DNA of 64,000 nt from positions 434,001 through 498,000 of the forward strand of contig BPUI01000002.1 of the NCBI GenBank assembly GCA_019973575.1, given 5' to 3'. Below the pieces are notes generated by a model. It was given only the letters and a program-made list of their open reading frames with translations. It did no database searches and was not told where the DNA came from. Both the position numbers and the translations under genes were made by a program. The first letter of the stretch is position 1. Each line of letters opens with the position of its first letter. This document shows positions 13,399-63,966 of the stretch, in pieces. Source of the stretch: Gemmatimonadetes bacterium T265 (GTDB lineage Bacteria > Gemmatimonadota > Gemmatimonadetes > Gemmatimonadales > Gemmatimonadaceae).

Positions 13399-13588
13399 GA
13401 CATCGATCCGACATCCTGCGTGTGAAGGACCGGGGCCGCGGCACACACCGCGGCCCCAATTACGTTGTGGACTCGGCGCGCGGTCGGCGTCGTTCTACCC
13501 GCGGTGCGCGCCAGTGTGCAGCGGTCCCGCTACTCTCGAAGTGGAGGACCACGAACTTCCAAGGGTATTTAGGAATCTTTGTGCCTTC

Positions 13589-13602
13589 GTGAGCGTACTC
13601 AC
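13589..13602. promoter_or_regulatory. Palindrome upstream of the PEP-CTERM protease
   Basis: GTGAG-CGTA-CTCAC, a perfect 5-bp inverted repeat 67 bases before the protease ATG, next to an AT-richer stretch (13560-13580) that is the likeliest promoter area in the 270-base spacer. Possible operator; not matched to a known regulator. Confidence 0.35.
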
Positions 13603-13668
13603 GTCCGCTCGGCGCTAGCGTGTGATGCACCCGCGAGTGCTGCAACGCCTCCTCCCCACCAGTCCGAC

Positions 13669-31726: not shown

Positions 31727-32763
31727 CCACGCCCGCATTGCCCGCACCACTCGCCGGGGGCAGTGCGACCGAAAGTCTTCCGGAGCGGACACGCCCAGGC
31801 GGCGCCCGCCAGGATCGCGGTCGCGCGGCGGTCGACGAGTTCTCCCGGTTCGCATCGCAGCTGCGCGCCGTCGCGAGCCCGACCGGCCTCGCGACGGCCG
31901 CGCTGTTCGCGTTCCTGTACGCCCGGCCGGCGTACCTGCTCGTGCGCGACTGGTGGACCAACCCCGAAGCGGGGCACGGCCTGCTCCTCGCCCCGCTCGC
32001 ACTCTGGTTCGCCTACAAGAGCGGGATTCGCCCCGACGCGCGTCCGAACCGCGCGGTCGGCGCGGCGCTGCTCGTCGCCGGCGTCGGCTTCCGGTGGCTC
32101 GCCGATCTCGCCGCCGAACTGTTCGTCATGCGCGGGTCGATGCTCCTCGCGCTCGCCGGCCTCGTCGTCTGGCACTACGGCGTGCGCCAGGTCGTCCGCT
32201 GGTGGCTGCCCTTCACGCTGTTCGCGCTCTCGATCCCGCTCCCCGAGATCGTCCTGAACAAGATCGCGCTGCCCCTGCAGTTCCTCGCCTCGAAGATCGG
32301 CGCGTCGCTGCTCGCCTGGCGGCAGATCCCCGTGCTGCTCTCGGGCAATGTCATCCGCATCCCGCGCCACGAGCTCTTCGTCGCGGAGGCGTGCAGCGGG
32401 CTCCGGTCGCTCACCGCACTCATCAGCCTCGGCGTGCTGCTCGGCGCCATCGTGCTGCGCCACCCGATCAGCCGGCTACTGCTCCTCGCGGCCGTGATCC
32501 CGGTCGCGATCGTGCTGAACGGCGTGCGCGTGTTCCTGACCGGCTTCCTGGTCTACTTCGTCGACCCCGCGCTCGGCGAGGGGTTCATGCACAAGACCGA
32601 GGGAATGGCCGTCTTCATCGTGGCCTTCGCGATCATCGGCGCGCTCGCCTTCGGCGTCAGCGCGGTCGAGCAGCGCGTTCTGCCAGCCCCGGAGCGTCGC
32701 GACGGCAGCCGGGTACCAGAGCCCGTAACTGGTTTCCCCGCCCCGGAGTTCGCGAATGGCTAA
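31723..32763 (+). CDS. Exosortase (EpsH/Xrt type)
   Basis: 346 aa. After a polar N-terminus of about 45 residues there are around eight membrane helices. The exosortase active-site residues are all present: Cys224 in VAEACSGLRS, Arg269 in NGVRVF and His290 in HKTEG. Exosortases cut PEP-CTERM sorting signals at the inner membrane and are tied to exopolysaccharide production. One PEP-CTERM substrate, the protease at 13.7 kb, is in this window. The next gene is EpsI, as in the classical EpsH-EpsI order, and overlaps by 8 bases. The exact exosortase subtype cannot be set by eye. Confidence 0.93.
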   Translation: MTTPALPAPLAGGSATESLPERTRPGGARQDRGRAAVDEFSRFASQLRAVASPTGLATAALFAFLYARPAYLLVRDWWTNPEAGHGLLLAPLALWFAYKSGIRPDARPNRAVGAALLVAGVGFRWLADLAAELFVMRGSMLLALAGLVVWHYGVRQVVRWWLPFTLFALSIPLPEIVLNKIALPLQFLASKIGASLLAWRQIPVLLSGNVIRIPRHELFVAEACSGLRSLTALISLGVLLGAIVLRHPISRLLLLAAVIPVAIVLNGVRVFLTGFLVYFVDPALGEGFMHKTEGMAVFIVAFAIIGALAFGVSAVEQRVLPAPERRDGSRVPEPVTGFPAPEFANG

Positions 32764-48012: not shown

Positions 48013-48906
48013 TCAGTGCGCGCCCTTGCGGAAGATCATCACCGGGAGCGTCATGCACATGATCCGCACGTCGAACCAAATGCTCTGCCGGCCGATGTAG
48101 TCCAGGTCGTACCGGACCTTTTCCTTGACGTCCTCGAGACACGAATCGTAGCTGTGGTTGATTTGCGCCCAGCCGGTGATTCCGGGCCGGACACGCAGCC
48201 GCTGCGTGTACTCGGGAATGTCGGCACGAAGTCGCACGACGATGCTCGGGCGCTCCGGGCGTGGTCCGACGATGTTCATCTCGCCGCGCAGCACGTTGAT
48301 GAGCTGCGGAATCTCGTCGAGCCGCGTCTTTCGTAAGACGGCGCCGATCGGGGTCACGCGCGCGTCCTGCTTGGTCGCCCAGACCGCCTGGCCGTTGGCC
48401 TCGGCGTTCACGCGCATCGAGCGGAACTTGAGGATCGTGAATGGCTGACCGCCGAGGTCCTCGATGCGGCGTTCGCCGGGGGCAGCGCCGGCCGGCCGCC
48501 GCCAACGCCGGTCGAGTCCGACCCGCGTCTGCGTGTAGAACACCGGGCCCGGCGAGGACACCTTGACCGCGAAGGCCACGAGGACGCAAATCGGCGCGAG
48601 GATGAGCAGCGCGACCGCGGCGATCACGATGTTCATCGCGCGCGTCACCCACTCGAGTCGCTCCGCGGGCGTGACGCCGAGTTCATCCATCGGCCCCGGG
48701 GCCGGCGTGCTGATGGCGCCCACGCCCACGTGCGGCCACGGCGCGACGGCGATCTCCCCCGTCGACGCGAGGGCGGCCCGTCCGAGCCCGTGATGGGCGC
48801 TCAGCGGAGTGCTCGCGCCCGGACCAAGCCCGCGGTTCCCGTCGGGAACGAGCAGGCCCGGGTGTAGGCTCGGCAGCGCGCGCGAGGCGGCGTCGTGGTG
48901 CAGCAC
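48013..48906 (-). CDS. Initiating sugar transferase (WcaJ/ExoY type)
   Basis: 297 aa. A polar N-terminal stretch of about 80 residues, one membrane hairpin helix (MNIVIAAVALLILAPICVLVAFAVKV, about 90-115), then the bacterial sugar transferase domain: SPGPVFYTQTRVG, FTILKFRSMR, TPIGAVLRKTRLDEIPQLINVLRGEMNIVGPRPERP (catalytic Asp-Glu and PRP motif) and the C-terminal RPGITGWAQINHSY. These enzymes attach the first sugar-phosphate to undecaprenyl phosphate at the inner membrane. It lacks the extra N-terminal helices of full-size WbaP. Located between the Wza-like gene (18 bases) and a GT4 gene (20 bases). Confidence 0.94.
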   Translation of the reverse strand: MLHHDAASRALPSLHPGLLVPDGNRGLGPGASTPLSAHHGLGRAALASTGEIAVAPWPHVGVGAISTPAPGPMDELGVTPAERLEWVTRAMNIVIAAVALLILAPICVLVAFAVKVSSPGPVFYTQTRVGLDRRWRRPAGAAPGERRIEDLGGQPFTILKFRSMRVNAEANGQAVWATKQDARVTPIGAVLRKTRLDEIPQLINVLRGEMNIVGPRPERPSIVVRLRADIPEYTQRLRVRPGITGWAQINHSYDSCLEDVKEKVRYDLDYIGRQSIWFDVRIMCMTLPVMIFRKGAH

Positions 48907-48924
48907 GGCGTTGGGTACGTGCGG

Positions 48925-49854
48925 TCAGTTCGAGTTATAGAGCGACCGAATGAGTGCGAGCAGGCCGGTGATGGCCGTCACGCCCCAGAAGATCGTCTGC
49001 ACACTCGGGAAGCTGCTCTGCTTCGGCTCCTCGATCCGCACCTCGTCGCCCGAGCGGATGCCGAGGTCGTCGAGCGTGCGCCCGTCGCGGATCGCGGTCT
49101 GGACCTGTTTGGTGTCGTACAGCCGCTTGGTCCCGCGCATCACGGTGATGCGCCCCTTCTTCTGGCTCGCGGCGCCCGGGCCGCCGGCGAGCGTGATCGC
49201 GTCCGTCAGCTGCCGATCGGCGTCGACCACGTAGTAGCCGGGCCGCGGCACCGAGCCGGTGATCGACAGACGCGTGAGCGGCACCACGCGCAAGCGCGGG
49301 TCGCGCACGTACGTGCGCTCGTACGCTTCGACCGCCGTGGGAAGTTCGGCACGCAGCACGCCGCGCAGCGATCCGTCGGGCCACGCGTTGAGCGAGTAGA
49401 CGGGTCCGGACACCCCGTCGCGCACGACCACGGTGTCGCCGGCCGTCGGACGGTCGGACACCGTCCGCGCGAGCAGCAAATCCTGCACGAGGAAGCGGTC
49501 GCCCGGACGGAAGTCGCCGTTCGTGAGGCGGTTCCGGATCTCGTCGATTTCGTCGCGGCGCGCGCGACCGGCCGTGCTCGTGGTGTCGAACCGCGCGAGC
49601 GAATCGCGACGCGCCGTCAGCTGCGCGCGCGTCGCGTCCGGCGTGTAGGCGGTCACCAGCGTCGGGACCGCGAGCGGCGTGACGCCCGACGTCGGCTGCG
49701 GGGCGTTCGACGTCGTCTGCGGCGCCGTCGCATTCGCCGCCGGCGTTGCCGGCACTTGCGCGGCCACCGCGCCGAGTGGGGCGAGCAGCGCGACGCAGAA
49801 CCCGGTTCGCGTCCGGCGGGCGAACGAGCGGCGGAGCACAGAGTGAGGCGTCAT
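48925..49854 (-). CDS. Polysaccharide export protein with SLBB domains (Wza-like)
   Basis: 309 aa from the ATG at 49854. A signal peptide (basic start, hydrophobic VALLAPLGAVAAQ) is followed by a Thr/Pro/Ala-rich linker. A polysaccharide-export type region starts near FRPGDRFLVQDL, and an SLBB domain near LSITGSVPRPGYYVVDADRQLTDAITLAGGPG. A predicted C-terminal membrane helix (IFWGVTAITGLLALIRSLY) ends the protein, unlike outer-membrane Wza, so it may span or anchor in a membrane differently. Its partner BY-kinase gene is 201 bases upstream on the same strand. Confidence 0.87.
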   Translation of the reverse strand: MTPHSVLRRSFARRTRTGFCVALLAPLGAVAAQVPATPAANATAPQTTSNAPQPTSGVTPLAVPTLVTAYTPDATRAQLTARRDSLARFDTTSTAGRARRDEIDEIRNRLTNGDFRPGDRFLVQDLLLARTVSDRPTAGDTVVVRDGVSGPVYSLNAWPDGSLRGVLRAELPTAVEAYERTYVRDPRLRVVPLTRLSITGSVPRPGYYVVDADRQLTDAITLAGGPGAASQKKGRITVMRGTKRLYDTKQVQTAIRDGRTLDDLGIRSGDEVRIEEPKQSSFPSVQTIFWGVTAITGLLALIRSLYNSN

Positions 49855-50012
49855 GGAGTCGAATGGGGTGAGGCCGGGCGGGTGGTCGGCGCCGGTGGTC
49901 ACCGCCATCTATCGTACTGCCGTAGGTGCCACTCGGCAATGAATGTCGGCACCGTGCGTCGAAAAAGAAGCGTCACGAACGTGATGAGTTCCGTCCGCGA
50001 CGCGCGTCACAC

Positions 50013-50042
50013 CCGGGGCGGAGCGTTAGTGCTACGCCCCGG
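50013..50042 (-). terminator. Hairpin downstream of the BY-kinase gene
   Basis: CCGGGGCG (50013-50020) pairs with CGCCCCGG (50035-50042), with a partly paired 14-base loop, just past the kinase stop at 50056. No T tract. A spacer of about 200 bases then leads to the Wza-like gene, which probably has its own promoter. Confidence 0.5.
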
Positions 50043-50055
50043 CGTGAGAAGGCGC

Positions 50056-52554
50056 CTACTCGCGCGTCGCCACGAGACGCGCGGGTAGGCGCGTGGACTC
50101 GCTCTCGTCCGACAGCAGCGGCTGCCGCGGCCCGTCGTCGACGGCGGCGTAGTCAGGGTCATACGAGTAGTACTCGTACATGCTCGCGTCGGTCGCGACG
50201 CCGTTGAGGATCGCGCCCGGGATCGCGATCGGCAGGTGCTCGAGGATCTTCAGCTTCGCCTTCGCGAGCCGCACGTCGGTGACGCCGCGCCGCAGGACGA
50301 CGGCGAGCTGTCCGCACGCGGCGCCGACCGAGTACGCGTCCGTGCCGGCGCCTAATGGGGGCGTATCGACAATAATCGCGTCGTGCTCCGCGCCGAGCGC
50401 GGCCAGAAGCTGCGGGAGCCGCGCGGTGGCGAGCAGTTCGGGGGCGCGGCGGTGGCGCTGGCCGGCGGGGACGACCCAGAGGTTCTCGTGGTGCGTCGGG
50501 TGCAGGACCTCGGACAGCAGGCTCGTGCCTTCGAGGTACTCGACGAGTCCGGGCGAGGCCGGCAGGTCGAACGTGCCGTGGAGTTGTCCGCGGCGCACGT
50601 CGGCGTCGACGAGCACCGTCCGCCACCCGCCCTGCGCGAAGGCGAGCGCGAGATTACTGGCGACCAGCGACTTGCCATCGCCCGCGCCGGGGCTCGTGAT
50701 GCCGAGCGCGACGGGCTGGTTGGGCGGGGCGGCGTAGCGCACGTTGAGCCGGAGGGCGCGGAACGCCTCGACGATCTGCGCCGCGCGCTCGGCCGACTGG
50801 CGGCCGCGGCCCTCGTCGATGCGGGGCACGACGCCGAGCACCGACAGGCCGAGCTCCTTCGTCACCTGGTCCGGGTAGCGGAACCGGCGGTCGAGCAGGT
50901 CGAGCAGGATCGCGAGCGCGACGCCGAGCGCGAGGCCCGCCGCCGTGGCGACGCCGATGATCCGGACGGTCGTGTTGTTAGACGGCTGAAGCGGCGTGAC
51001 CGCGGAGTCCAGCACCTTCACGTCGGGCACCGACGCCTGTTGCGCGAGGCTCGCGCTCGCGTAGTCGCCCCGAAGCCGCGAGTAGATCTCACCCTGCACC
51101 GAGACCTCGCGCTGAAGCGCGGTCTGCTCCGTAGTGCGTTGCGGGATCGCTTCGAGTTCGCGCGTCGCGTCGCCGAGCTGACCCCGGATATTCGTCTCGC
51201 GCTCTTTGAGCGTGCCGATGAACGCCAGATTCTGCCGTAGCACGTTCTGACGCGCGGCGTTGAGCTGGATGCGCAGCTGCTGGGTGGTCGGTTCGGAATC
51301 GGTGAAGGTGACGCGCCACTTCTCGAGCTTGCTTTGCTGGTCGTTGTAGTCGGCGATCGCGGTGCGGAGCGGGGTGGCACCGGGGTCGCGTGCGACGGTC
51401 GTCACCGAGTTGATGGCGTCGACGGGGAGCGGGCCGCCGCTGCGGATGGACTGCGCGATGCGCTCCAACTGCTCGCGGTCGCGTCGGATCTGGTCGTAGT
51501 CGAGCTTGCGGATGCCGTAGTTGGTGATGACCGGATCGCTCGTGACCGTGCCGACGCCGGCGTCGACGCCCGCCGCGGCCGGCGGCGCGACGGTGACGCC
51601 CTCAGACGGCTTGGTGATCGCGCCGACGCGGAACTGTTCGAGCCGGCGTTCGGCCTCCTCGAGCTTCTGCCGCGCGGCTTCGAGCTGCGTGGCGAGGGTG
51701 GTCGACTGCTGGTTGAGCTCGCGCTTCTTGAGGTCGGTCGCGACGGTCACGAACTGGTCGAGCATCGCGTTCAGCGTCGCCGCCGGACGCTGCGCGGCCG
51801 TCCCGCTGAGGCGGAGGTAGATGATCGGGCTACGCTCGTTCGCCAGGACGCTCAACCGGCGGATGACGTCGGTCGTCGCCTCTCGGGGCGTGACGACGTT
51901 GAACTTGATCGTGGCCTTGTTGTGGAGCAGCCGCGCGGGCGGCACCCAGGCGAAACCCGCCCGCCGCCCGATCGAGTCCCCGACGACCCCCGACTCGGTG
52001 ATGGCGCCGACTTGGTCGGTCAACGTCCAGCGCCCGCCGTCGACCTTGAGCGTGTAGTCGCCGGGGTAAAAACGTGCCTTCGAACGGTCGATCGTAAAGT
52101 TCTGGAAGAGCACCGAGTCGGCGGCGTGCTCGGGGCGGAGATACAGCGCGAGCCGGATGACGACGGGATCCGCGATTGCCGGCGCTTTGAGCAGATCGCT
52201 CCACCCCTGGATCTGCGTCAGGTTTCCGCCGCGTGCTGCGCTGCCAGTGCCGCCCGTCTGCTGCGAGGGCGTCGTAAAGATGTCGGCATTCACGTCGTAT
52301 TGCGGGTCGACGAAACGTCCCGCAATTACGCCGCCGAGGACGCCGAGCGCCGTCGTCGCAACGATGATCCACTTGAACCGTTGCAGCGCGCTTGCGATGC
52401 GGCCGATCGAGATGGCCGTGCCGGGCGCCGCTTCGCCCTCGGGGGCCGGACCGTAGCCGGCCGCAGAATCGTAAGGCGCGAGGCCGGCGGCCTCGGCGGG
52501 GACGGGCAGCGACGGCTCGCCGCCGACCGGCACGGGCGTCAGGTTCGCAGACAT
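50056..52554 (-). CDS. Wzc-type BY-kinase / chain-length regulator
   Basis: 832 aa. N-terminal Wzz part with membrane helices at about 63-80 and 530-553; a long periplasmic coiled-coil region between them (QLEAARQKLEEAERRLEQF and neighbours). The cytoplasmic kinase domain has Walker A SPGAGDGKSL (621-630), Walker A' VLVDADVRRG and IIVDTPPLG. A tyrosine cluster (YEYYSYDPDY) near the C-terminus is the autophosphorylation tail. It controls polymer length and secretion with a Wza-type partner. Presence next to an ABC-type exporter region is unusual. Its promoter is in the 369-base spacer to the right. Confidence 0.93.
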   Translation of the reverse strand: MSANLTPVPVGGEPSLPVPAEAAGLAPYDSAAGYGPAPEGEAAPGTAISIGRIASALQRFKWIIVATTALGVLGGVIAGRFVDPQYDVNADIFTTPSQQTGGTGSAARGGNLTQIQGWSDLLKAPAIADPVVIRLALYLRPEHAADSVLFQNFTIDRSKARFYPGDYTLKVDGGRWTLTDQVGAITESGVVGDSIGRRAGFAWVPPARLLHNKATIKFNVVTPREATTDVIRRLSVLANERSPIIYLRLSGTAAQRPAATLNAMLDQFVTVATDLKKRELNQQSTTLATQLEAARQKLEEAERRLEQFRVGAITKPSEGVTVAPPAAAGVDAGVGTVTSDPVITNYGIRKLDYDQIRRDREQLERIAQSIRSGGPLPVDAINSVTTVARDPGATPLRTAIADYNDQQSKLEKWRVTFTDSEPTTQQLRIQLNAARQNVLRQNLAFIGTLKERETNIRGQLGDATRELEAIPQRTTEQTALQREVSVQGEIYSRLRGDYASASLAQQASVPDVKVLDSAVTPLQPSNNTTVRIIGVATAAGLALGVALAILLDLLDRRFRYPDQVTKELGLSVLGVVPRIDEGRGRQSAERAAQIVEAFRALRLNVRYAAPPNQPVALGITSPGAGDGKSLVASNLALAFAQGGWRTVLVDADVRRGQLHGTFDLPASPGLVEYLEGTSLLSEVLHPTHHENLWVVPAGQRHRRAPELLATARLPQLLAALGAEHDAIIVDTPPLGAGTDAYSVGAACGQLAVVLRRGVTDVRLAKAKLKILEHLPIAIPGAILNGVATDASMYEYYSYDPDYAAVDDGPRQPLLSDESESTRLPARLVATRE

Positions 52555-52923
52555 CTAGAGGGGAAGCGCGGAGGAACGGCGGTGTGGGCCGTAGGAGAGG
52601 CAGTCGGGAACGAGTGTCGACCCGATCGGGCGCCCGCCGTAGCGCCAGTGCAGCACCGTCGTCAGGTGTGGCGTGCGTCGCTCAAGCTGACATCGCGCCC
52701 GACCGACACCACTGCATGCGCCACCGTCGCAGTCACAGTCGTGACCGCGCCGTGGCGCCGCCGTGCGTTGGCATACGGGACGACGTCGGTCACGTACCCC
52801 GTTCGGCGGAAAAAAGTCTCGCCGCGCGTGCTTGTCGAGAGCTGGCGAGGTTCGTAGCCCCCGTGCTTCGCCCCTGTGTTCGTCGGCGCCTCCCCCCCGC
52901 GCCGGACCCCGCGTCCCCCTCCC
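52555..52923. other. 369-base divergent spacer between the BY-kinase and response-regulator genes
   Basis: No gene seen. It should contain promoters for both directions. A T/A-richer patch (GGCGGAAAAAAGTC, about 52806-52819) lies some 105 bases before the regulator ATG. A TGGCGC...TGCG near 52752 resembles a sigma54 promoter, but the GG-GC spacing is off by one base. No strong hairpin or repeat noticed. Confidence 0.4.
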
Positions 52924-54480
52924 ATGTCCGATCCTCGCTCCGCGACCCCTTCGTCCGACTCGGCGTCGCACGGGGCCGCGCCCGCGCTTCGCATCCTCGT
53001 CGTCGACGACGACCGTACGCTCCGCGAGGGGTGTGCAAACATCCTACGCCTCGACGGGCACCACGTGGTGGCGTTCGGGCGCGGCGAGGAGGCGATCGAC
53101 GCCGCCGAGCGCCAGCACTTCGATATCGCGCTCGTCGATCTATACATGACGCCGATCAGCGGGATGGACGTGCTGCGAGCGATTACCGCGTCGAGTCGCG
53201 ATACTCTCGTGGTCGTGATGACCGGCAACCCGACGGTCGCGTCGAGCCTCGACGCGCTGCGGGCCGGCGCGTGGGACTACCTGCCGAAGCCGTTCTCCGC
53301 GTCGCACCTCCAGGTGCTCGTCGGGCGGGCGGCGCACGCGGCGCGCGGCGGGCGCGTCTCGCGCGAGCTGCGCGATGCGGGTGGGAGTGCGGCGGCGCCG
53401 GCCGCGGCGCCCGTAAGTGCCCGGGCCGCGGGTGACGCACCGACGCCCCGTGCGGGAGGGGAGGGGGACCACTCGCTCATTGGCGACTCGGCGGCGCTCC
53501 GGCAGGCGGTGGCGATGGCGCGCCGCGTGGCGCCGTCCGACGCGTCGGTGATGATCTTCGGCGAAAGCGGCACGGGGAAGGAAGTCATCGCGCACTTCAT
53601 CCACCGGCACAGCCGGCGCGCGGCGCGCAAGATGATCGCGATCAACTGCGCGGCCATCCCGGGCCCGCTGCTCGAAAGCGAGATGTTCGGGCACAAGAAG
53701 GGTGCGTTCACGGGCGCGGACCGCGACAAGGCCGGCCTGCTGGAGGCGGCCGACGGCGGGACGCTCTTCCTCGACGAACTGGGCGAGATGCCGATGCCGC
53801 TGCAGGCCAAGCTGCTGCGCGTGCTGCAGGACGGCGTCGTGCGCCGAGTCGGGAGCGAGCGGCAGGACGCGGTCGTCAACGTGCGGTTCATTGCGGCGAC
53901 CAACCGCGACCCGCACGAGGCCGTGAAGCAGGGGTTGTTGCGCGAGGACCTGTTCTACCGCCTCTGCGTCGTGCCGATCAAGCTGCCGCCGCTCCGCCAG
54001 CGCCCCGACGACGTCGCCGCGCTCGCGCAGCACTTCCTCGAGCGCTTCTGGCGCCGGCACCGCTCGGCGGGTTCCGCCCGGCCGACCTTCTCGGTGGCCG
54101 CGCTAACATTCCTGCAATCGCGGCCGTGGCGCGGCAACGTACGTGAACTGCAGAACGTCATCGAGCACGTGACCGTGGTGGCCGAGTCGGGGCGGCCGAT
54201 CGAGCCGGAGGATATTCCGCTCTACGAGGAGCAGGTTACCGACGAGGGCGCGTCGGCCGTTCCGGCCGGGCTGTACGCGGAGGCGTTCCACGCCGCGAAG
54301 GAGCAGCTGGTGACGCACTTCGAGCGCGAGTACCTCAATCGCCTGTCGAATCGCGCGGCGGGGAACATGTCGCGCGCCGCGCGGCTGGCCGGGGTCGATC
54401 GGACTACCCTGTACCGCCTGATGGAGAAGCACGGCATGCGGCGCGAGGACGCGCCGCTGATGACCGCCGTCGGGGCGTGA
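52924..54480 (+). CDS. NtrC-type sigma54-dependent response regulator
   Basis: 518 aa from the ATG at 52924. The receiver domain (22-140) has acidic residues VVDDD (27-30), phospho-acceptor Asp72 in LVDLYM, a Thr in VVMTG and Lys in YLPKPF. The AAA+ domain has Walker A GESGTGKE (213-220), the sigma54-contact loop GAFTGA (260-265), Walker B GGTLFLDELGEM and the arginine finger region LREDLFYRLCVVPI. A Fis-type helix-turn-helix is at the end (MSRAARLAGVDRTTLYRLMEKHG). Similar pairs (PrsK/PrsR) control PEP-CTERM loci elsewhere, so control of the adjacent polysaccharide genes is plausible but inferred. Confidence 0.94.
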   Translation: MSDPRSATPSSDSASHGAAPALRILVVDDDRTLREGCANILRLDGHHVVAFGRGEEAIDAAERQHFDIALVDLYMTPISGMDVLRAITASSRDTLVVVMTGNPTVASSLDALRAGAWDYLPKPFSASHLQVLVGRAAHAARGGRVSRELRDAGGSAAAPAAAPVSARAAGDAPTPRAGGEGDHSLIGDSAALRQAVAMARRVAPSDASVMIFGESGTGKEVIAHFIHRHSRRAARKMIAINCAAIPGPLLESEMFGHKKGAFTGADRDKAGLLEAADGGTLFLDELGEMPMPLQAKLLRVLQDGVVRRVGSERQDAVVNVRFIAATNRDPHEAVKQGLLREDLFYRLCVVPIKLPPLRQRPDDVAALAQHFLERFWRRHRSAGSARPTFSVAALTFLQSRPWRGNVRELQNVIEHVTVVAESGRPIEPEDIPLYEEQVTDEGASAVPAGLYAEAFHAAKEQLVTHFEREYLNRLSNRAAGNMSRAARLAGVDRTTLYRLMEKHGMRREDAPLMTAVGA

Positions 54481-56281: not shown

Positions 56282-56315
56282 ATTGGCCGGCGAGCCCACC
56301 CACCGAGAGAACGGC

Positions 56316-57722
56316 ATGAGCCAGACGGACACGACCACGACGGCAGCGAACGGCGCGACGGCCACCGGCGGCGCTCCGGCCGGCCCGGGCGCGTTGGAGC
56401 TGCGCGACCCGCGGACCGACAAGCAGTACACCCTGGCGCTGCTGCCGCGCGGGACGGAGGGCGACGAGGCGGTCCGCGCGTCGGATCTGCGGAACGTGAA
56501 GGTCGACGCCGGCGACTTTGGCGTGATGAGCTACGACCCGGCGTTCATGAACACGGCGTCGTGCAAGAGCGCGATCACGTTCATCGACGGGGACCAGGGG
56601 ATCCTGCGCTACCGCGGGTACCCGATCGAGCAGCTGGCCGAGGGCTCGACGTTCCTCGAAGTGGCGTACCTGCTGCGGAACGGCGAGCTGCCGACGCAGA
56701 GCGAATACCAGGCGTGGACGCACGACATCACGTACCACACGTACGTGCACGAGAACATCAAGCGCTTCCTCGAGGGGTTCCGGCACGACGCGCACCCGAT
56801 GTCGATGCTGTGCAGCGCGGTGGCGGCGCTGTCGTCGTTCTACCCGGAGGCGAAGAACATCTTCGACCCGGAGGAGCGCTACCGGTCGATCGTCCGGTTG
56901 ATGGCGAAGCTCCCGACGGTGGCGGCGATGATCTACCGGCACATGAAAGGGATGCCGGTGGTCTACCCGGACAACTCGCTGAACTACACGGAGAACTACC
57001 TGTCGATGGTGGCGCGGATGAGCGAGCCGCGCTACGAGGCGAACCCGGTGTTCTCGCGGGCGCTGGAGGTGCTGTTCATCCTGCACGCGGACCACGAGCA
57101 GAACTGCTCGACGAGCGCGGTGCGCGCCGTAGGTTCTTCGCACGTCGATCCTTTCTCGGCGCTCGCGGCGGGGATCGCGGCGCTGTACGGGCCGCTGCAC
57201 GGCGGAGCCAACGAGGCGGTGCTGCGGATGATCGAGGAGATCGGGCACCCCAAGAACGTGCCGGCGTTTATCGAGGACGTGAAGAGCGGGAAGGGAAGTC
57301 GCCTGATGGGCTTCGGGCACCGCGTGTACAAGAGTTACGATCCGCGCGCCCGGATCGTGAAGCAGCTGGCGGACCAGGTGTTCGCGCAGGTCGGGATGGA
57401 CAAGGACCTGGAGATCGCGCTGGAGCTGGAGCGGGTCGCGCTGAGCGACGACTACTTCGTGTCGCGGAAGCTCTATCCGAACGTGGACTTCTACACGGGG
57501 CTGATCTACCGCTCGATGGCGTTCCCGACGTCGTACTTCACGGTGCTGTTCGCCGTGGCGCGCGCGGCGGGGTGGCTGGCGCAGTGGGAAGAGATGCTGC
57601 TGGACAAGGAGCAGAAGATCGCGCGGCCGCGGCAGATCTACGTCGGGCCGGGCGAACGGCAGTACGAGTCGCGGCTGACGGACAAGTTCCCGACGGCGCG
57701 CAAGGATTCGATCCGGAAGTGA
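56316..57722 (+). CDS. gltA: Citrate synthase
   Basis: 468 aa from the ATG at 56316 (the frame upstream lacks homology). The first 30 residues are Thr/Ala-rich and probably disordered. Typical type II core: GILRYRGYPIEQLAEGSTFLEVAYLL, catalytic His in LHADHEQNCSTSAVRAVGSS and in GPLHGGANEAVLRM, and the catalytic Asp region MGFGHRVYKSYDPRARI. It condenses oxaloacetate and acetyl-CoA. A strong hairpin 17 bases after the stop ends the transcript. Confidence 0.96.
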   Translation: MSQTDTTTTAANGATATGGAPAGPGALELRDPRTDKQYTLALLPRGTEGDEAVRASDLRNVKVDAGDFGVMSYDPAFMNTASCKSAITFIDGDQGILRYRGYPIEQLAEGSTFLEVAYLLRNGELPTQSEYQAWTHDITYHTYVHENIKRFLEGFRHDAHPMSMLCSAVAALSSFYPEAKNIFDPEERYRSIVRLMAKLPTVAAMIYRHMKGMPVVYPDNSLNYTENYLSMVARMSEPRYEANPVFSRALEVLFILHADHEQNCSTSAVRAVGSSHVDPFSALAAGIAALYGPLHGGANEAVLRMIEEIGHPKNVPAFIEDVKSGKGSRLMGFGHRVYKSYDPRARIVKQLADQVFAQVGMDKDLEIALELERVALSDDYFVSRKLYPNVDFYTGLIYRSMAFPTSYFTVLFAVARAAGWLAQWEEMLLDKEQKIARPRQIYVGPGERQYESRLTDKFPTARKDSIRK

Positions 57723-57791: not shown

Positions 57792-58550
57792 ATGGCTTCG
57801 TTGATACTCCGCCGGATGGCGATGGCCGACACGTCGCTCGGGCGCACGGCGCGCGCCGCGCGGCGCTTCGTGCTCGACTTCTCGCTGCCGGCGCCGGCCG
57901 TGGTCGTCCGGCCGCTGCTGTGGCTGTTCCTCGGCGTGCGGCAGGCCTACTACTTCGTCTACCGCGTGTTCGTGTGCGAGCCGCTGTTCAAGGCGTCGTG
58001 CGCGCGCGTGGGGCGGCGGGTGCGCACGGGACCCTTTATCCAGTGGGTGCAGGGGGCGGGTCGCATCGAGGTCGGCGACGACGTCGCGATCTACGGCAAG
58101 ATCTCGTTCACGTTCGCCAGCCGGTATAGCGACTCGCCGACGATCCGGATCGGCAGTCATTCGCACATCGGCCACAACTGCGCGTTCGTGATCGGGCGTG
58201 AGATCACGATCGGCGAGTACTGTCAGATGGCGCCCGACGTCGTGATCTTCGACGCCAGCGGCCACCCGTCCGACCCGGTCGCCCGTGAGGCGGGCGAGCC
58301 GGCGCCGAGCGACACGGTCAAGCCGGTGGTGATCGAGCGGAACGTGTGGATCGGGCGCGGGGCGATGATCTTCCCCGGCGTGACCGTCGGGGAGAACTCG
58401 GTCATCGGCGCGCGCGCGATCGTCATGAGCTCCGTACCCGCGAACAGCCTCGTGCTCGCGCCGGCGGCGCGGCGGATGGGCGCGGTCGGGGCGGTAGCGG
58501 CCGGTCCGGCCGCCGCTGCTCCCGAGCTCCAGACATCAGGCGCCCGCTGA
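57792..58550 (+). CDS. Hexapeptide-repeat (LbH) acyltransferase
   Basis: 252 aa from the ATG at 57792. An N-terminal amphipathic/hydrophobic part (about 25-62) suggests membrane association. A left-handed beta-helix follows with hexapeptide rungs (IEVGDDVAIYG, IRIGSHSHIGHNCAFVIGREITIGEYC) and a catalytic-type His (HNCAF and SGHPSDP), then KPVVIERNVWIGRGAMIFPGVTVGENSVIGARAIV. Similar to sugar O-acetyltransferases. Its 3' end overlaps the acyl-carrier-protein gene on the other strand by 15 bases. It could take an acyl group from that carrier (inference). Confidence 0.88.
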   Translation: MASLILRRMAMADTSLGRTARAARRFVLDFSLPAPAVVVRPLLWLFLGVRQAYYFVYRVFVCEPLFKASCARVGRRVRTGPFIQWVQGAGRIEVGDDVAIYGKISFTFASRYSDSPTIRIGSHSHIGHNCAFVIGREITIGEYCQMAPDVVIFDASGHPSDPVAREAGEPAPSDTVKPVVIERNVWIGRGAMIFPGVTVGENSVIGARAIVMSSVPANSLVLAPAARRMGAVGAVAAGPAAAAPELQTSGAR

Positions 58551-58775
58551 CTCGTAGTACGACACGATCGCCGGCAGGGAGCGCAGGGTCGGCATCACGT
58601 CTTCGGGGAGCTCGCCGCCGAACTCCTCTTCGAGGCCGAGGATCAGGTTCGCGTGGCCGATCGAATCCCACGCCGGGAGGTCGGACTGCGAGGCCGTGTC
58701 GGTGATGGCGTCGGCCGGCACGTTGAACGTGAGCGACATGACGTTTTTGATACGATCGGTAACATTATCCGACAC
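58536..58775 (-). CDS. Acyl carrier protein
   Basis: 79 aa from a GTG at 58775 with GGAG upstream. It has the phosphopantetheine site: Ser38 in LPAWDSIGHANLI, in the normal position, and the usual acidic helix II (LEEEFGGELPE). It is not a fatty-acid-type AcpP (DSLD/E), and matches the DSxGH/A carriers used with FkbH-like enzymes and polyketide/nonribosomal-type loading. It is divergent from the FkbH-like gene, with 38 bases between them. Confidence 0.93.
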   Translation of the reverse strand: MSDNVTDRIKNVMSLTFNVPADAITDTASQSDLPAWDSIGHANLILGLEEEFGGELPEDVMPTLRSLPAIVSYYESAGA

Positions 58776-58813
58776 TGGAATTCTCCGAAGCCGTTGACGA
58801 GGATGGACGCGCC

Positions 58814-60589
58814 GTGAAGCTACTGGAGGCCTACCGCATCATCAACGCGCCGCCCGACCCGGCGCTCGGGACCCGGCGGTTCGCGCTCGCGTGCGGCTTC
58901 ACGCCGCTCGCGCTGGAGTCGTTCTTCCACGCGCACCTCCGCGGGCGCGTGCGCACGCACAACGTGGCGGTGACGTCCGGTCGTTTCGGCGACGTCGCGG
59001 GGAACGTCGAACGCGCGGCGGCGGAGACGCCCGACGGCATCGCGGTCGTCGTCGAATGGGCGGACGTCGACCCGCGACTCGGGCTGCGCGGGCACGGCGC
59101 GATCGCCAGCGCCGAGGCGGCCGCGGACCTGCTCGACTCGGCGCGCGGCGCCCTCGCGCGCGTCGCCGCGGCGGTCGAGGCGGCCGCGGCCGCGACGCGC
59201 GTCGTGGTCTGCCGACCGACGCTTCCGTTGCCGCCGTACTTTCTCGACTCCGCCGGGACCGTCGGTGCGCTGCGCGCGCGCGTGGACGAGGCGGTCGCCG
59301 CGTGGGTCGCGCGCCTGGCCGCCGTACCGCGTGTGCTGGTCGTCGACCCCGACGCGGTCGCGGCGTCCTCGCCCGTTGGGCAGCGCCGCGACGCGGCGGA
59401 GGAGCTGCGGACCGGGTTCCCGTACCGCCGCGAGCACGCGGACGTGTTGGCGCGCGCGCTCGCGACCGCGTTGACGCCGGCCGCCCCGAAGAAGGGCATC
59501 ATCACGGACCTCGACGACACCCTCTGGCGCGGCCTGCTCGGCGAGGTCGGGGTGACCGGGGTGCAGTGGGGCCTGGACCACGGCGCGCACCCGCACACGA
59601 TGTACCAGCAGATGCTCGCGAACCTCGCGGAAAAGGGCGTGTTAGTCGCGGTGGCGTCGAAGAACGACGCGGCGCTCGTCGCGGACGCGTTGCGGCGCGA
59701 AGACCTCGTGCTGTCGTCCGAACGCGTCTTCCCCGTGCACGCGAGTTGGGGCCCGAAGTCGGACGCGGTCGGGGCGATCCTGAAAACGTGGAACGTCGGC
59801 GCGGACAGCGTCGTGTTCGTCGACGACAGCCCGCTCGAACTCGCGGAAGTGCAGGCGTCGCACCCCGAGGTGGAGTGCCTACGGTTCCGCGCGGATTCGC
59901 CCGAGGCGGTGGTCGAGCTGCTCGAACGGCTCGATGATTTGTTCGGGCGCGAGGGCGTGCGCGAGGAAGACCGCATCCGGGCGGAGAGCATCCGGAATGC
60001 GGGCGTCGTTCGCGAAGCGCTGAGCGGCGGGGCCGAGAACGCCGACGCGTTCCTTTCCGGACTACGCGGTGAGGTCGAGGTCGACGTGACCCACGCGGCG
60101 GACGACGAGCGCGCGTTCGAACTCGTGAACAAGACCAACCAGTTCAACCTGAACGGGCGCCGGTACACGACGGCGGAGTGGCGTGGCGCCGTCGGGCGGC
60201 CGGGCGGGTTCGTCGCGATGGTGAGCTACCGCGACAAGTTCGGCCCGCTCGGCAAGATCGCGGTCGCGGCCGGGGTCGAGTCGGGGGCGGAGTTCCGGCT
60301 CGACGCGTGGGTACTGAGCTGTCGGGCGTTCGCGCGGCGCATCGAGTTCACGATGCTGCGGGCGCTGTTCGACACGTTCGGCGCCGACGCGGTCACGCTC
60401 GACGTCGAGCGGACCGCCCGGAACGGCCCCGTGCAGGAGTTCCTCGCCGCGCTCGGCGCGCCGACGCCCGACCGGGGCGTCGTTCGTATCGAACGCGCCG
60501 ACTTCGACCGGCTCGCGCCGGCGCTGCCCCACGCCGTCGTGGCGCGGGCCGCGGAGCGGGACGTGGCGGCGGCCCCGGCGGACGCCTAA
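58814..60589 (+). CDS. FkbH-like HAD-IIIC family enzyme
   Basis: 591 aa. Residues 1-210 are the FkbH N-terminal region. The HAD site is TDLDDTLWRG (Asp232 and Asp234), with VASKNDAALV (motif II) and VFVDDSPLELAEV (motif III-IV). The C-terminal GNAT-like part contains the family hallmark ELVNKTNQFNLNGRRYT. Known FkbH/OzmB-type enzymes take a phosphorylated three-carbon acid such as 1,3-bisphosphoglycerate, remove phosphate and load glyceryl onto an acyl carrier protein; an ACP gene is adjacent, which supports this. The product here is not known. The stop codon is within a GCCTAAC heptamer; the VOC gene starts 4 bases later. Confidence 0.92.
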   Translation: MKLLEAYRIINAPPDPALGTRRFALACGFTPLALESFFHAHLRGRVRTHNVAVTSGRFGDVAGNVERAAAETPDGIAVVVEWADVDPRLGLRGHGAIASAEAAADLLDSARGALARVAAAVEAAAAATRVVVCRPTLPLPPYFLDSAGTVGALRARVDEAVAAWVARLAAVPRVLVVDPDAVAASSPVGQRRDAAEELRTGFPYRREHADVLARALATALTPAAPKKGIITDLDDTLWRGLLGEVGVTGVQWGLDHGAHPHTMYQQMLANLAEKGVLVAVASKNDAALVADALRREDLVLSSERVFPVHASWGPKSDAVGAILKTWNVGADSVVFVDDSPLELAEVQASHPEVECLRFRADSPEAVVELLERLDDLFGREGVREEDRIRAESIRNAGVVREALSGGAENADAFLSGLRGEVEVDVTHAADDERAFELVNKTNQFNLNGRRYTTAEWRGAVGRPGGFVAMVSYRDKFGPLGKIAVAAGVESGAEFRLDAWVLSCRAFARRIEFTMLRALFDTFGADAVTLDVERTARNGPVQEFLAALGAPTPDRGVVRIERADFDRLAPALPHAVVARAAERDVAAAPADA

Positions 60590-60593
60590 CACG

Positions 60594-61025
60594 ATGCGCC
60601 TGCACCACCTCGGGTACGTCGGGCGTGACCTCGCGACGCTCCAGCGCCGGTTCACCAGCGAGTCGTCGGAGGTGATGACGCCCGCGACGGCCGACCCCGT
60701 CCAGCGCGTCGTCGTGCAGTTCTTCCGCGACGCGGTGACCGGGGACGTGCTCGAGATCATCGCCCCGCTCGACACGGTCGAGGCCTCGCCGCTCGCCGGG
60801 CGTATCGCGCGCGGGGGGGGGCTCGACCACGCGTGCTACGAGCTCGAGGCCGGCGACGGAACGCTGGAAGAGGTGCTCGACGCGGAGCGCGCGCGGGGCG
60901 CCCGCGTCACGTGTCCGCCGGTGCCGGCGACGGCGTTCGGGCGGCGGATCGCGTTCGTGCTCCGGCGGTCGGGGCGGCTCGTCGAGTACGTCGAGGCCCG
61001 CCCGGGTCCGGATTCCGTCGTCTGA
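60594..61025 (+). CDS. VOC family protein
   Basis: 143 aa with two beta-alpha-beta-beta-beta units: RLHHLGYVGRDLATL (metal His near residue 4-5), VVVQFFRDAVTGDVLEIIAPL (metal Glu), then GLDHACYELE and IAFVLRRSGRLVEYVE. Resembles methylmalonyl-CoA epimerase/glyoxalase-like proteins. It follows the FkbH-like gene by 4 bases, so it probably acts on the same acyl unit, for example by epimerising or rearranging it (inference). It converges on mutY with 3 bases between stops. Confidence 0.87.
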   Translation: MRLHHLGYVGRDLATLQRRFTSESSEVMTPATADPVQRVVVQFFRDAVTGDVLEIIAPLDTVEASPLAGRIARGGGLDHACYELEAGDGTLEEVLDAERARGARVTCPPVPATAFGRRIAFVLRRSGRLVEYVEARPGPDSVV

Positions 61026-61028
61026 GGG

Positions 61029-61787
61029 CTACGGGCGGGGGCTCGAGTCCGCCGCCCGCGCCCGCGTTCGCCGGCCGGGGCATCCGCGCGCGGCGTGGGT
61101 CGCGCACTGCGGCCTAACGGGGCACAGCTCGCAGCGCCGCGCGCGGGCGGTGCACACCGTGGCGCCGAGCTCCATGAGCGCCTGGTTGTGCGTCCACGCG
61201 GCGCGTCCGGTGCGCGGCAGCACGGCTTCGGCGATGCGCCAGAGGCGCGCGAGGTCGCGGGGGCGTTTGGGATTCAGCTCGGGCGCGAACACCCTCGCGA
61301 GCACGCGCGCGACGTTCGTGTCGACGAGCGCCGCGCGGCGTTCGTACGCGAAGCTGGCCACCGCGCCCGCGGTGTACGCGCCGACGCCGGGGAGGGTGCG
61401 GAGCGACGCGGGGTCGGCGGGGATCTCGCCCGGCCCGGCGGCGTCGGTGACCTGCCGCGCGAGGGCGTGGAGGTTGCGCGCACGGGCGTAGTAGCCCAGT
61501 CCGGCCCAGGCCTCCGTCACGTGCTCGACCGGCGCCTCGGCGACGTGGCCTAACGTCGGGAAGCGTTCGAGGAAGCGCGCGTAGTAGTCGACCACGCGCG
61601 CGACCTGCGTCTGTTGCAGCATCAGCTCCGAGACGAGGACGCGGTACGGGTCGCGGGTGCGGCGCCACGGGAGGTCGCGCCCCGAGCGGCGGAACCACGC
61701 GCGCAGGCGCCGGCCGAAGGCGCGGGCGCGTGCGGGGTCGAGTTCGGGCTCCGGGCGGGACGGCTGCGCCACGTTGCGCCGCGTCAC
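61029..61787 (-). CDS. mutY: A/G-specific adenine glycosylase MutY, short form
   Basis: 252 aa from the GTG at 61787 (overlapping the upstream acyltransferase stop, GTGA). The catalytic domain is complete: DLPWRRTRDPYRVLVSELMLQQTQV (catalytic Glu54), the helix-hairpin-helix LPGVGAYTAGA (132-142), the catalytic Asp156 in LVDTNV, and the iron-sulfur ligands Cys212, 219, 222 and 228 (C-x6-C-x2-C-x5-C). After the cluster only 24 residues remain, so the C-terminal NUDIX-like domain that reads 8-oxoguanine in normal 350-residue MutY is missing. It might instead be a related thymine/uracil-type glycosylase. See findings. Confidence 0.88.
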   Translation of the reverse strand: MTRRNVAQPSRPEPELDPARARAFGRRLRAWFRRSGRDLPWRRTRDPYRVLVSELMLQQTQVARVVDYYARFLERFPTLGHVAEAPVEHVTEAWAGLGYYARARNLHALARQVTDAAGPGEIPADPASLRTLPGVGAYTAGAVASFAYERRAALVDTNVARVLARVFAPELNPKRPRDLARLWRIAEAVLPRTGRAAWTHNQALMELGATVCTARARRCELCPVRPQCATHAARGCPGRRTRARAADSSPRP

Positions 61788-62413
61788 TCCGCCGGGGGAG
61801 CTACTTCGGGGGCGGCGCCCGGAACGCGCTTGACGACCCGCGCGGGGTTCCCGGCGATGATCGAATCGGCGGGGTACGAGCCGGCGCACACGGCGCCGAA
61901 ACCGACCACCGAGTTGCGGCCGATGCGGGTGCCGGCGAGGACGCCGACCGATCCGCCGAGCCAGACGTTCTCCTCCAGGACCACCGGCTTCACGCGCACC
62001 GGGGCGTCGGGCGAATGCCGGTCGACGTGGGTGCTGTGGAAGTCGGTGTCGGAGATCGAGGCGTCGCTGAGGATTGCCCGCGGGCCGATCGTGATCGACT
62101 GGCTGCACCCGAACTTGGTTCCGTTCAGGAAGCTGCCGCTGCCGATCTCGATGACGGCCTCGGGCGTGTTGGTCCAGGGCGTGACGACGCGTGCAACGTT
62201 CACGTTGTCGCCGAAGATCACCCGGCCGGGGCCGCGGATGACGAGGCGCCCGCTGACCCGCAGGTTGCGCCCCGCGGTCACGCGTCTGCCGAGCAGGCGG
62301 CACCAGAGGAGTGTCCAGCGCCCCCGCGCGAGGGCGGAGACGTACCGGACCCCTCCCAGCGGGTCGGCAAGTCCCTGCCTCAGCTTCGACCGGCCGCTCC
62401 CTGGAATGCTCAC
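61784..62413 (-). CDS. Hexapeptide-repeat (LbH) acyltransferase, WcaF-like
   Basis: 209 aa from the GTG at 62413; the open frame continues upstream without homology. Beta-helix rungs: VIFGDNVNVARVV, IEIGSGSFLNGTKFGCSQSITIGPRAILSDASISDTDFHST (with a conserved His), then KPVVLEENVWLGGSVGVLAGTRIGRNSVVGFGAVCAGSYPADSIIAGNPARVVKRV, the usual end of sugar O-acetyltransferases. Coupled to mutY by a 4-base overlap, which is probably just packing. Together with the other acyltransferases nearby it suggests decoration of a surface glycan. Confidence 0.88.
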   Translation of the reverse strand: MSIPGSGRSKLRQGLADPLGGVRYVSALARGRWTLLWCRLLGRRVTAGRNLRVSGRLVIRGPGRVIFGDNVNVARVVTPWTNTPEAVIEIGSGSFLNGTKFGCSQSITIGPRAILSDASISDTDFHSTHVDRHSPDAPVRVKPVVLEENVWLGGSVGVLAGTRIGRNSVVGFGAVCAGSYPADSIIAGNPARVVKRVPGAAPEVAPPAE

Positions 62414-62682
62414 CGCTCTACTCACCGGATGGTCGCGCGACGTCTCGGCTCTCGCGCATATGTGATGTCCCTCGCACCGTGGGCCGCGTTCTGCGCGCGG
62501 CGGGTTCGACCCCAAGTTATCAATCGGAGTCGGGACACTGGTGCTCGTCGCGCGGGCGAGGACGCGCCCGGACAGCTGGCGCCGTCGTCTGAACGCCGCA
62601 ATGTTGGGCTGCACACGACGCGGCCGTTCACCCGCACGACCGACGCGCGGTCGGTGCGACGGTCTTGCCGCACCGCTCGCGC

Positions 62683-63966
62683 ATGGCACTCGGGATCGGT
62701 CGATCAGTTCGGGAATATCGGGGCACGCCCGCGACCGCCCCGGGGGAGGCACTCGGCGTCGTGCCGAGGGGTGCGTTGCTGACCGCGGGCGCTCGCCGCG
62801 ATGGGTGGCCGGTCACCCACGCGGTGGGCTGGCTGCGTCGGCTGTTCGCGGTCCCCGACAACGCGCACGCGGTCCCGGCGCTCGACGGCGTCCGCGCGCT
62901 CGCCGCGAGTCTGGTCTTTCTGGTCCACTATCAGGCCGCGTTTCGATTCCTGCTCGTTTCGAACCCGCCCCTGTATAACGCCGGCGAATACGCCGCGCTC
63001 GTCGGGTTCCACGGCGTCTACGTCTTCTTCGTGCTGAGCGGGTTTCTGATCTACGGCTCGCTCATCGCCCGGCCGGTGAGGCCGACGCGGTATCTATGGC
63101 GGCGCGTCCAGCGGATCTACCCCACGTTTCTCGTCGTTCTCGCCGTGTACCTCGTCATCGGCGCGTTCGCGCCCGTGCGGAGCAAGCTGCCGTCCGGGGT
63201 GAACGGGCTCCGGCTGATCGCCGCGAACGTGTTGCTGCTGCCCGGGGTGTTTCGGATCCGCCCGATCATCACCGTGTCGTGGTCGCTCAGCTTCGAGCTG
63301 GTCTTCTACGTCCTGATCCTCGCGGTGGTCGTCGCGCTCGGGCTCCGCCGCTGGGATTCCCGCGGCCGCGTCCTGCTGTGGACGGGGCTCCTCGTGCTGT
63401 GGCTCGCGGGTGGGACGGCGGCGATCCGTGTCGTGCGCGATTTCATCATGTTCCTTCCCGGCATTCTGCTGGCCGAGGCGGCCCGGTCTGAGCGCGCGCG
63501 CGCGCTGGTGGCCCTCGTTCCGGTCTGGCTCGCGGCGTTGCTGGCCGGGTCGGCGATCGCGGCGCAGCCGCTGTTCATCGCGTGGGGGGCGGTGCCGGGG
63601 GCGCGCGTCCTCTGGCTCGCGCCGACGGTGGTGGCGTTGCTGCTCCTGTCGGCGACGACGTCGCTGTTGTTGTTTCGCCTGCTGCAAGGGCCGCGGACCG
63701 CGACGATCTTTGCGCACGAACCGCTACGCCGGCTCGGCGTCGTGAGTTACTCGTTCTACCTGAGCCACGGGCTCGTCATCCACGTCATCGCCGGGCTGTG
63801 CGCGCGCACGGCGGTCCTCCGGGCGCTGCACGCGGTCGGGCCGGGGGCGTACGTGCTGCTGTTCGCCCCGGCGTTCGCGGCCGCGGTCGTGGCGGCGTTC
63901 GTCCTCTTCCGCGCCGTCGAGGAGCCGCTCTCGCTCCGGGCACTCGCCGCGGCTCGTTCCGGCTGA
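62683..63966 (+). CDS. Membrane acyltransferase 3 family (OafA-like)
   Basis: 427 aa from the ATG at 62683, though the homologous part begins near residue 65 (AVPALDGVRALAASLVFLVHY, with the active-site His in LVHY). About ten membrane helices follow; GVYVFFVLSGFLIYG, RRVQRIYPTF, WSLSFELVFYVL and SYSFYLSHGLVIHV are family hallmarks. These proteins O-acylate lipopolysaccharide, exopolysaccharide or peptidoglycan using acyl donors from the cytoplasm. The start is uncertain; the first 55 residues may be leader. It ends 34 bases before the window edge, where nothing else is visible. Confidence 0.88.
   Translation: MALGIGRSVREYRGTPATAPGEALGVVPRGALLTAGARRDGWPVTHAVGWLRRLFAVPDNAHAVPALDGVRALAASLVFLVHYQAAFRFLLVSNPPLYNAGEYAALVGFHGVYVFFVLSGFLIYGSLIARPVRPTRYLWRRVQRIYPTFLVVLAVYLVIGAFAPVRSKLPSGVNGLRLIAANVLLLPGVFRIRPIITVSWSLSFELVFYVLILAVVVALGLRRWDSRGRVLLWTGLLVLWLAGGTAAIRVVRDFIMFLPGILLAEAARSERARALVALVPVWLAALLAGSAIAAQPLFIAWGAVPGARVLWLAPTVVALLLLSATTSLLLFRLLQGPRTATIFAHEPLRRLGVVSYSFYLSHGLVIHVIAGLCARTAVLRALHAVGPGAYVLLFAPAFAAAVVAAFVLFRAVEEPLSLRALAAARSG

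Follow-up and report, generated by a model that had tools for sequence, protein, structure and literature searches.

FkbH-type enzymes are proposed to convert 1,3-bisphosphoglycerate to glyceryl-acyl carrier protein (ACP) for polyketides (PMC7489565), and a locus of Gemmatimonadetes bacterium T265 raises the question of what such an enzyme does beside a stand-alone ACP, a VOC-family enzyme and an LbH (hexapeptide) acyltransferase, AT1. The locus lies in a stretch of 64,000 nucleotides of contig BPUI01000002.1 (C2:434001-498000), termed the window below, of a genome of 5.63 Mb in 6 contigs. The gene set is probably a glycan-acylation cassette in which FkbH would load a glyceryl group, the VOC enzyme would act on it and the LbH enzyme would transfer it to a surface glycan. 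The observations that bear on this reading are the gene content, the intact active-site residues, linkage across phyla, gene fusions in the same genome and neighbourhoods rich in surface-glycan genes.

The FkbH-like protein belongs to family TIGR01686 (223.5 bits, cut-off 146.65) and comprises an N-terminal GDSL-like part, a HAD-IIIC phosphatase and a C-terminal GNAT-like part; its predicted model has a mean pLDDT of 87, with 3SLR as the nearest solved structure. The HAD-IIIC residues D232, D234, S282, K315, D337 and D338 are conserved in 59-61 of 61 aligned sequences, and C503, the conserved SCR cysteine, is also retained. The ACP (79 residues) matches no Pfam family at E <= 1e-3 and the ACP models of NCBIfam only weakly and under their cut-offs; its best score of 36.1 bits, against the 92 of the housekeeping AcpP equivalog, does not mark it as AcpP. 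Among 55 aligned ACP relatives, W36 and S38 are invariant and D37 is found in 53. The VOC enzyme has the VOC/glyoxalase fold according to Glyoxalase_4 (31.5 bits, cut-off 27), and its best sequence matches in PDB, 2QH0 and 3HDP, are "glyoxalase I" of Clostridium acetobutylicum. AT1, with hexapeptide repeats (cut-off for Hexapep 27 bits) and a candidate catalytic histidine, resembles LbH O-acyltransferases: His158 in a DxxxHP site is invariant across 12 aligned rows and is presumably catalytic, as in the maltose/galactoside acetyltransferase family. All four components had been named, at these positions, in a preliminary description of the window, which also gave the ACP a DSIGH site, called the acyltransferase a beta-helix enzyme, set the VOC gene 4 bases downstream of FkbH and placed a second acyltransferase (AT2) and a membrane acyltransferase (AT3) within 3 kb. 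Each of these features is present, and the spacing is exactly 4 bases (Table 1).

The same description treated the genes as lying together. All four are indeed adjacent, but they do not form one operon because the ACP gene is on the minus strand: it stands tail to tail with AT1, with ends that overlap by 15 bases, and head to head with FkbH. A single operon of four genes was rejected on this ground, and only FkbH and VOC can share a transcript. The usual order in other genomes is FkbH-ACP-VOC-LbH on a single strand.

Recurrence of the set was surveyed in loci of unequal length, many of them short contigs, with open reading frames (ORFs) called mechanically. A scan of named genomes, covering the best 80 of 202 loci, yielded 59 close FkbH loci of the window's subfamily (profile score >= 520 bits) and 21 divergent ones. 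ACP lies within 3 kb in 55 of the 59 close loci, and in two of the four loci without it the contig breaks off immediately; VOC is found in 17, an AT1-type LbH enzyme in 12 (L031, cut by a contig end, was added to these by hand) and both in seven. Divergent loci contain ACP in 17 of 21 cases and VOC in 8 of 21. Because ACP accompanies nearly all close FkbH homologues, and VOC and AT1 fewer of them, FkbH and ACP are the constant core, around which VOC and the LbH transferase are exchangeable parts. The FkbH of the window likewise has its partner ACP, on the opposite strand.

The linkage of VOC to FkbH was quantified in 250 genomes of the class containing locus L015 (genome G100), probably Terriglobia. 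The FkbH profile gave two well-separated groups, one above 580 bits (18 matches in 17 genomes) and the other at 206-253 bits (50 matches). The VOC profile gave 26 matches at >= 110 bits, a count that is partly circular because some rows (at least G100 and G101) come from loci of the alignment itself. Of these 26, 19 lie <= 3 kb from a listed FkbH, all on the same strand, against a chance expectation of about 0.01; the computation used the top 43 of 100 VOC rows (the 26 and 17 below 110 bits), all 68 FkbH matches and 17 AT1 rows. Only one of the next 17 VOC rows is within 3 kb of FkbH. Reading of the regions added two more (L156 and L157), with an opposite-strand FkbH at distances of 2.7 and 2.8 kb, for a total of 21 of 26. 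Eleven of the 19 linked VOC genes adjoin another FkbH subfamily that is absent from the query alignment, and in four loci of that subfamily (L165-L167 and L170) a weaker LbH match is directly beside FkbH, ACP and VOC. As a separate observation, a VOC gene of the same family at L159:7133-8452 is directly beside an LbH protein, with no FkbH in 16 kb.

The association extends to other phyla. Among 249 genomes of the window's phylum there are six VOC-profile matches at E <= 1e-22, one of them that of the window; the other five of five adjoin FkbH, and G487 has the entire colinear FkbH-ACP-VOC-AT1 set. The 3HDP/2QH0 stretch, searched against 291 genomes of the class of L068 (G519, Oscillospiraceae; Clostridia), found five homologues at E <= 1e-15 (L194-L198; the VOC of L198 reads as two overlapping pieces), and all five adjoin FkbH with ACP beside it. 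This stretch has a single match at E <= 1e-8 in each of three further genomes, those of L082 (Synergistales), L071 (Rhizobium) and L081 (Photobacterium), and each time it is a VOC gene adjoining FkbH; the genomes of L068 and L069 have no match at E <= 1e-8. The linkage around the relatives of the PDB proteins therefore reaches beyond the loci that first suggested it.

These results answer the survey proposed in the preliminary description, of how often the families cluster without polyketide synthases in other genomes: they do so in Acidobacteriota, Gemmatimonadota, Clostridia, Synergistales, Rhizobium and Photobacterium, and the objection that the genes might rarely be found together elsewhere fails on the ACP, VOC, Gemmatimonadota and Clostridia counts given above. 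It is very improbable that the grouping in the window is a chance neighbourhood in a region rich in acyltransferases. The opposite strand of the ACP gene and the position of the window FkbH outside the main VOC+AT1 clade would fit chance, but the linkage of 19 of 26 VOC genes, and its presence in Gemmatimonadota and Clostridia too, led to the rejection of that explanation.

A polyketide context was likewise rejected. The T265 genome was searched with PF00109, and not with the other Pfam families that cover FabH-type synthases, and no ketoacyl-synthase match falls in the window; matches on the same contig are far away, at C2:234557 and C2:1309732. The nearby ketoacyl synthase of a polyketide methoxymalonyl or tetronate module is thus missing by PF00109, and a complete ketoacyl-synthase motif pair occurs in only one of 174 loci (L066). 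The claim that no polyketide synthase accompanies the gene set is borne out, and the genes that do surround FkbH loci are glycan genes.

These neighbours were identified by Pfam scans of 96 of 100, 97 of 102 and 77 of 100 ORFs from three lists, from which antisense and some outer ORFs, those of FkbH and VOC, and one duplicated locus had been removed; each scan reports its 25 commonest families, so that a single-member family may have gone unlisted. The leading families of the first two sets are glycosyltransferases 4 and 2, flippases (Polysacc_synt), asparagine synthase, polysaccharide deacetylase, Hexapep, MBOAT and O-antigen ligase. The third, mostly Clostridia-type set is led by GDP-mannose dehydratase, CTP_transf_3, NeuB, methyltransferases, Maf and FliD, which indicate flagellar glycans with sialic-acid-like sugars. 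GT1/GT4 enzymes and Wzx-type flippases were also counted beside FkbH. In 60 clustered loci the recurrent neighbours include an asparagine-synthase-type amidotransferase (15), a MaoC-SDR fusion (10), a polysaccharide deacetylase (9) and an N-acyltransferase-like protein (5).

The second FkbH of the T265 genome (C3:521613; L101:7251-10699) shares one reading frame with a preceding LbH domain, and the gene after it encodes an LbH domain with an ACP-like end; the profile matches are weak. Genome G003 has the same pair of fusions. LbH transferases are therefore tied directly to both loader and carrier. A sugar transferase, a nucleotidyl-transferase/LbH protein and a ricin-lectin/DUF1996 protein are encoded near the second FkbH; about 24 kb from it, a ketoacyl-synthase match (C3:497111-497863) lies in an open frame of 2329 residues, possibly a polyketide synthase.

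The neighbourhoods and fusions bear on another explanation, in which the acid made by FkbH, ACP and VOC ends up in a small metabolite for secretion or in a lipid and the LbH enzymes are ordinary acetyl-CoA O-acetyltransferases. AT1-like enzymes that occur without FkbH and the service of characterised FkbH enzymes to polyketides (PMC7489565) are in its favour. It is nonetheless rather improbable in view of the near-absence of the ketoacyl-synthase motif pair, the glycan-gene neighbours and the LbH fusions with FkbH and with ACP in the T265 genome.

If the set is instead a glycan-acylation cassette, FkbH would take a phosphorylated three-carbon acid, most likely D-1,3-bisphosphoglycerate, remove its phosphate and leave glyceryl on the phosphopantetheine of the ACP, a loading step suggested by analogy with characterised homologues. 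The VOC enzyme would then act at the carbon beside the thioester, most likely by converting D-glyceryl-ACP into its L epimer. The 1,3-bisphosphoglycerate of glycolysis is of the D configuration, whereas gellan carries L-glycerate; a switch from D to L would call for an enzyme with the fold of methylmalonyl-CoA epimerase beside the maker of glyceryl-ACP, as is the case here. An LbH transferase would pass the acyl group to a sugar of the adjacent exosortase-type exopolysaccharide; LpxA and LpxD are precedents for LbH transferases that use acyl-ACP rather than acetyl-CoA. Fold and context suggest the epimerisation, the acceptor sugar and the preference for AT1 over AT2 or AT3 in the transfer step. 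The simple pathway put forward in the preliminary description, to load an acid on ACP, modify it and transfer it to a sugar, is supported in its outline by the survey, the glycan neighbours and the fusions, whereas the acid and the sugar are inferred. As for its mention of glyceryl- or lactyl-like groups, nothing favours lactyl over glyceryl for the window.

The MaoC-SDR fusion (cluster c17; L056:11950-13155 and nine other loci), located downstream of FkbH-ACP, may turn glyceryl-ACP into lactyl-ACP through a dehydration and a reduction step. A protein of about 670 residues that recurs beside FkbH-ACP in six loci (cluster c23; L047:13861-15867) has no Pfam or NCBIfam match, and clusters c33 (L047:8603-9922) and c29 (L005:2035-3129) have no match in the libraries tried for them.

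In the VOC enzyme, H5, E54, H79 and E131 constitute a candidate metal site, and these residues, together with D34 and C81, are conserved in 52-53 of 53 distinct VOC sequences (profile score >= 70 bits), the PDB one included; from the sequence, four metal ligands accompanied by an Asp and a Cys are plausible. The AlphaFold2 model (mean pLDDT 92) is closest to 2QH0/3HDP (Z 19.3, root mean square deviation 1.4 over 127 residues), followed by methylmalonyl-CoA epimerases (Z about 15). The C. acetobutylicum protein, termed glyoxalase I in a review (PMC5412262), has only about 25% identity with the window VOC but shares all six conserved residues, and its Clostridia homologues adjoin FkbH and ACP just as the window VOC adjoins FkbH. 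Methylmalonyl-CoA epimerase shares the VOC fold and epimerises a carbon beside a thioester, whereas the one epimerase-like row in the alignment has HxA in place of the HxC motif of the VOC family. A plain methylmalonyl-CoA epimerase was ruled out by the cut-off of TIGR03081.

It is possible, if on balance doubtful, that the FkbH-linked VOC enzymes, 3HDP and 2QH0 among them, constitute a family of carrier-bound 2-hydroxyacyl epimerases that convert D- to L-glyceryl-ACP for surface glycans. It is unlikely that the VOC enzyme instead resembles glyoxalase I in its chemistry but acts on the carrier, making lactyl-ACP from the ACP thiol and a 2-oxoaldehyde (methylglyoxal), with two routes feeding one ACP. 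The glyoxalase name of the nearest structures and the conserved H/E/H/E metal site agree with such an activity, but it would not need FkbH, which nevertheless adjoins nearly every such VOC gene, and methylmalonyl-CoA epimerases are next in the fold ranking.

In a quick tree of FkbH, with SH-aLRT support only, the window FkbH groups with that of G016 and with other loci that have no VOC, and the VOC+AT1 combination needs at least six changes on supported branches. The tree does not support a simple common origin of the entire cassette and the Acidobacteriota operon. The set was assembled independently in the window, or parts were lost elsewhere; both histories are consistent with a mix-and-match module whose parts serve one process. 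Of 99 genomes searched (T265 included), G016 is the only close relative with a full-length FkbH orthologue (49-50% identity), and a second relative, G093, has a partial FkbH gene at a contig end. The G016 region has a different order, namely kinase, AT1, EVE, citrate synthase, AT2, a MutY-like gene, polysaccharide deacetylase, ACP with FkbH as same-strand neighbours, and a membrane acyltransferase. AT2, whose true start is probably further inside, and AT3, both possible accessory parts, have counterparts there with 67% and 44% identity, respectively.

Several observations weigh against the glycan-acylation cassette as proposed. The window FkbH is outside the clade that holds 8 of 9 VOC+AT1 loci, the gene order in the window is unlike the usual operon, and G016, the nearest relative, lacks a VOC gene in the region, where it does have FkbH, ACP and AT1. 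Five of the 26 high-scoring VOC genes, a number subject to the circularity noted above, lack FkbH in the stretch retrieved: for four of them this covers 16 kb, and the fifth is at a contig edge. AT1-type enzymes are also found away from FkbH, and with only 3 of 17 AT1-profile matches in the 250 genomes within 3 kb of FkbH, AT1 was rejected as a constant part. The VOC enzyme lacks the methylmalonyl-epimerase signature (TIGR03081, 20.9 bits against a cut-off of 114.95), and its closest solved relative bears the name glyoxalase I.

The surroundings of the cassette are those of an exosortase-type exopolysaccharide locus. An exosortase gene (TIGR02602 cut-off 105.55 bits) is about 25 kb away, and a minus-strand exopolysaccharide cluster is headed by a polyprenyl glycosylphosphotransferase and a Wzc-like kinase, the latter about 5 kb from the cassette; the export protein at the head of this cluster is named from its translation alone. 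The translation of 13579-14805 ends in what is taken to be a PEP-CTERM-like protein end. Between the Wzc-like kinase and the cassette are a sigma-54 response regulator, a histidine kinase, an EVE protein and citrate synthase. The regulator (window 52876-54480), situated between the exopolysaccharide cluster and the cassette, is near the PEP-CTERM-box regulator model but under its cut-off (379.6 bits against 502.6).

Table 1. Features of the putative cassette and its surroundings, in window coordinates.
Feature	Position	Strand	Basis
AT1, LbH (hexapeptide) acyltransferase	57792-58550	+	Hexapep 43.2 bits
ACP, stand-alone, Ser38 in WDSIGH	58536-58775	-	weak NCBIfam ACP matches; conserved DS serine
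38-base gap, ACP and FkbH head to head	58776-58813
FkbH-like loader, 591 residues	58814-60589	+	TIGR01686 over cut-off
VOC enzyme (glyoxalase/epimerase fold)	60594-61025	+	Glyoxalase_4
AT2, second LbH acyltransferase, possible accessory part	61784-62752	-	Hexapep 28.8 bits
AT3, membrane acyltransferase, possible accessory part	62665-63966	+	Acyl_transf_3 88.1 bits
Exosortase (context)	31951-32763	+	TIGR02602 141.7 bits
Sugar-phosphate transferase, export protein and Wzc-like kinase (context)	48013-52554	-	head of exopolysaccharide cluster
Polyprenyl glycosylphosphotransferase	48013-48906	-
Wzc-like kinase	50056-52554	-
Citrate synthase	56283-57722		named from translation alone

Some elements of the proposed process are already known. 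ACP loading by FkbH is familiar from polyketides: FkbH, OzmB and the tetronate proteins Mad7/Mad14 are of the same TIGR01686 family, with a stand-alone ACP and a proposed conversion of 1,3-bisphosphoglycerate to glyceryl-ACP (PMC7489565). The window differs in having no polyketide synthase, in the extra N-terminal part of its FkbH, and in the VOC and LbH acyltransferase genes beside FkbH, where polyketide loaders have dehydrogenases, a methyltransferase or a FabH-like enzyme. It is established that bacterial glycans can carry glyceroyl groups, as do gellan, a secreted polysaccharide that bears L-glycerate as an ester (PMC9104527), and the pseudaminic acid of Campylobacter (PMC3068675). The portions available on gellan name no enzyme for its ester. 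An fkbH gene in a glycan locus has also been published: the flagellar glycosylation locus of Campylobacter jejuni holds the fkbH-domain gene cj1302 (PMC7099621), and thus, like the proposed cassette, combines such a gene with a glyceroyl-type group on a surface sugar. That group, di-O-methylglyceroyl, is linked to cj1295, on which it depends, rather than to cj1302 (PMC3068675), however; the portions available of these two papers do not mention a VOC protein, and the context in the window is an exopolysaccharide cluster. The Cj1295 family is also present in C. acetobutylicum (PMC3068675). Two Clostridia-type loci, L197 and L198, encode proteins of Cj1295-like length that are mutually similar at the start, and DUF2172, DUF4910 and HTH_47 are each matched by two members of the third neighbour set (77 ORFs); these matches are read here as the proteins of L197 and L198, with the three domains making up the Cj1295 family. 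In the open-licence literature of PubMed Central, no paper was found that joins FkbH with VOC/glyoxalase proteins or treats FkbH in polysaccharide decoration.

The findings suggest that a large part of the FkbH family supplies groups for decorating surface polysaccharides and flagellar glycans, not polyketides, and that this glycan branch would have a dedicated carrier and VOC tailoring enzyme along with exchangeable transferases. They point to genes, open to experimental test, that may underlie the glyceryl-type groups of bacterial glycans. They also make a case for a fresh look at a protein catalogued as glyoxalase I, a name that may misdescribe its FkbH-linked homologues (L194-L198, L082, L071 and L081). 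If these VOC enzymes are indeed carrier-bound epimerases, there would be a general route to L-glyceryl substituents like those of gellan, and a structurally characterised enzyme would have been misnamed.

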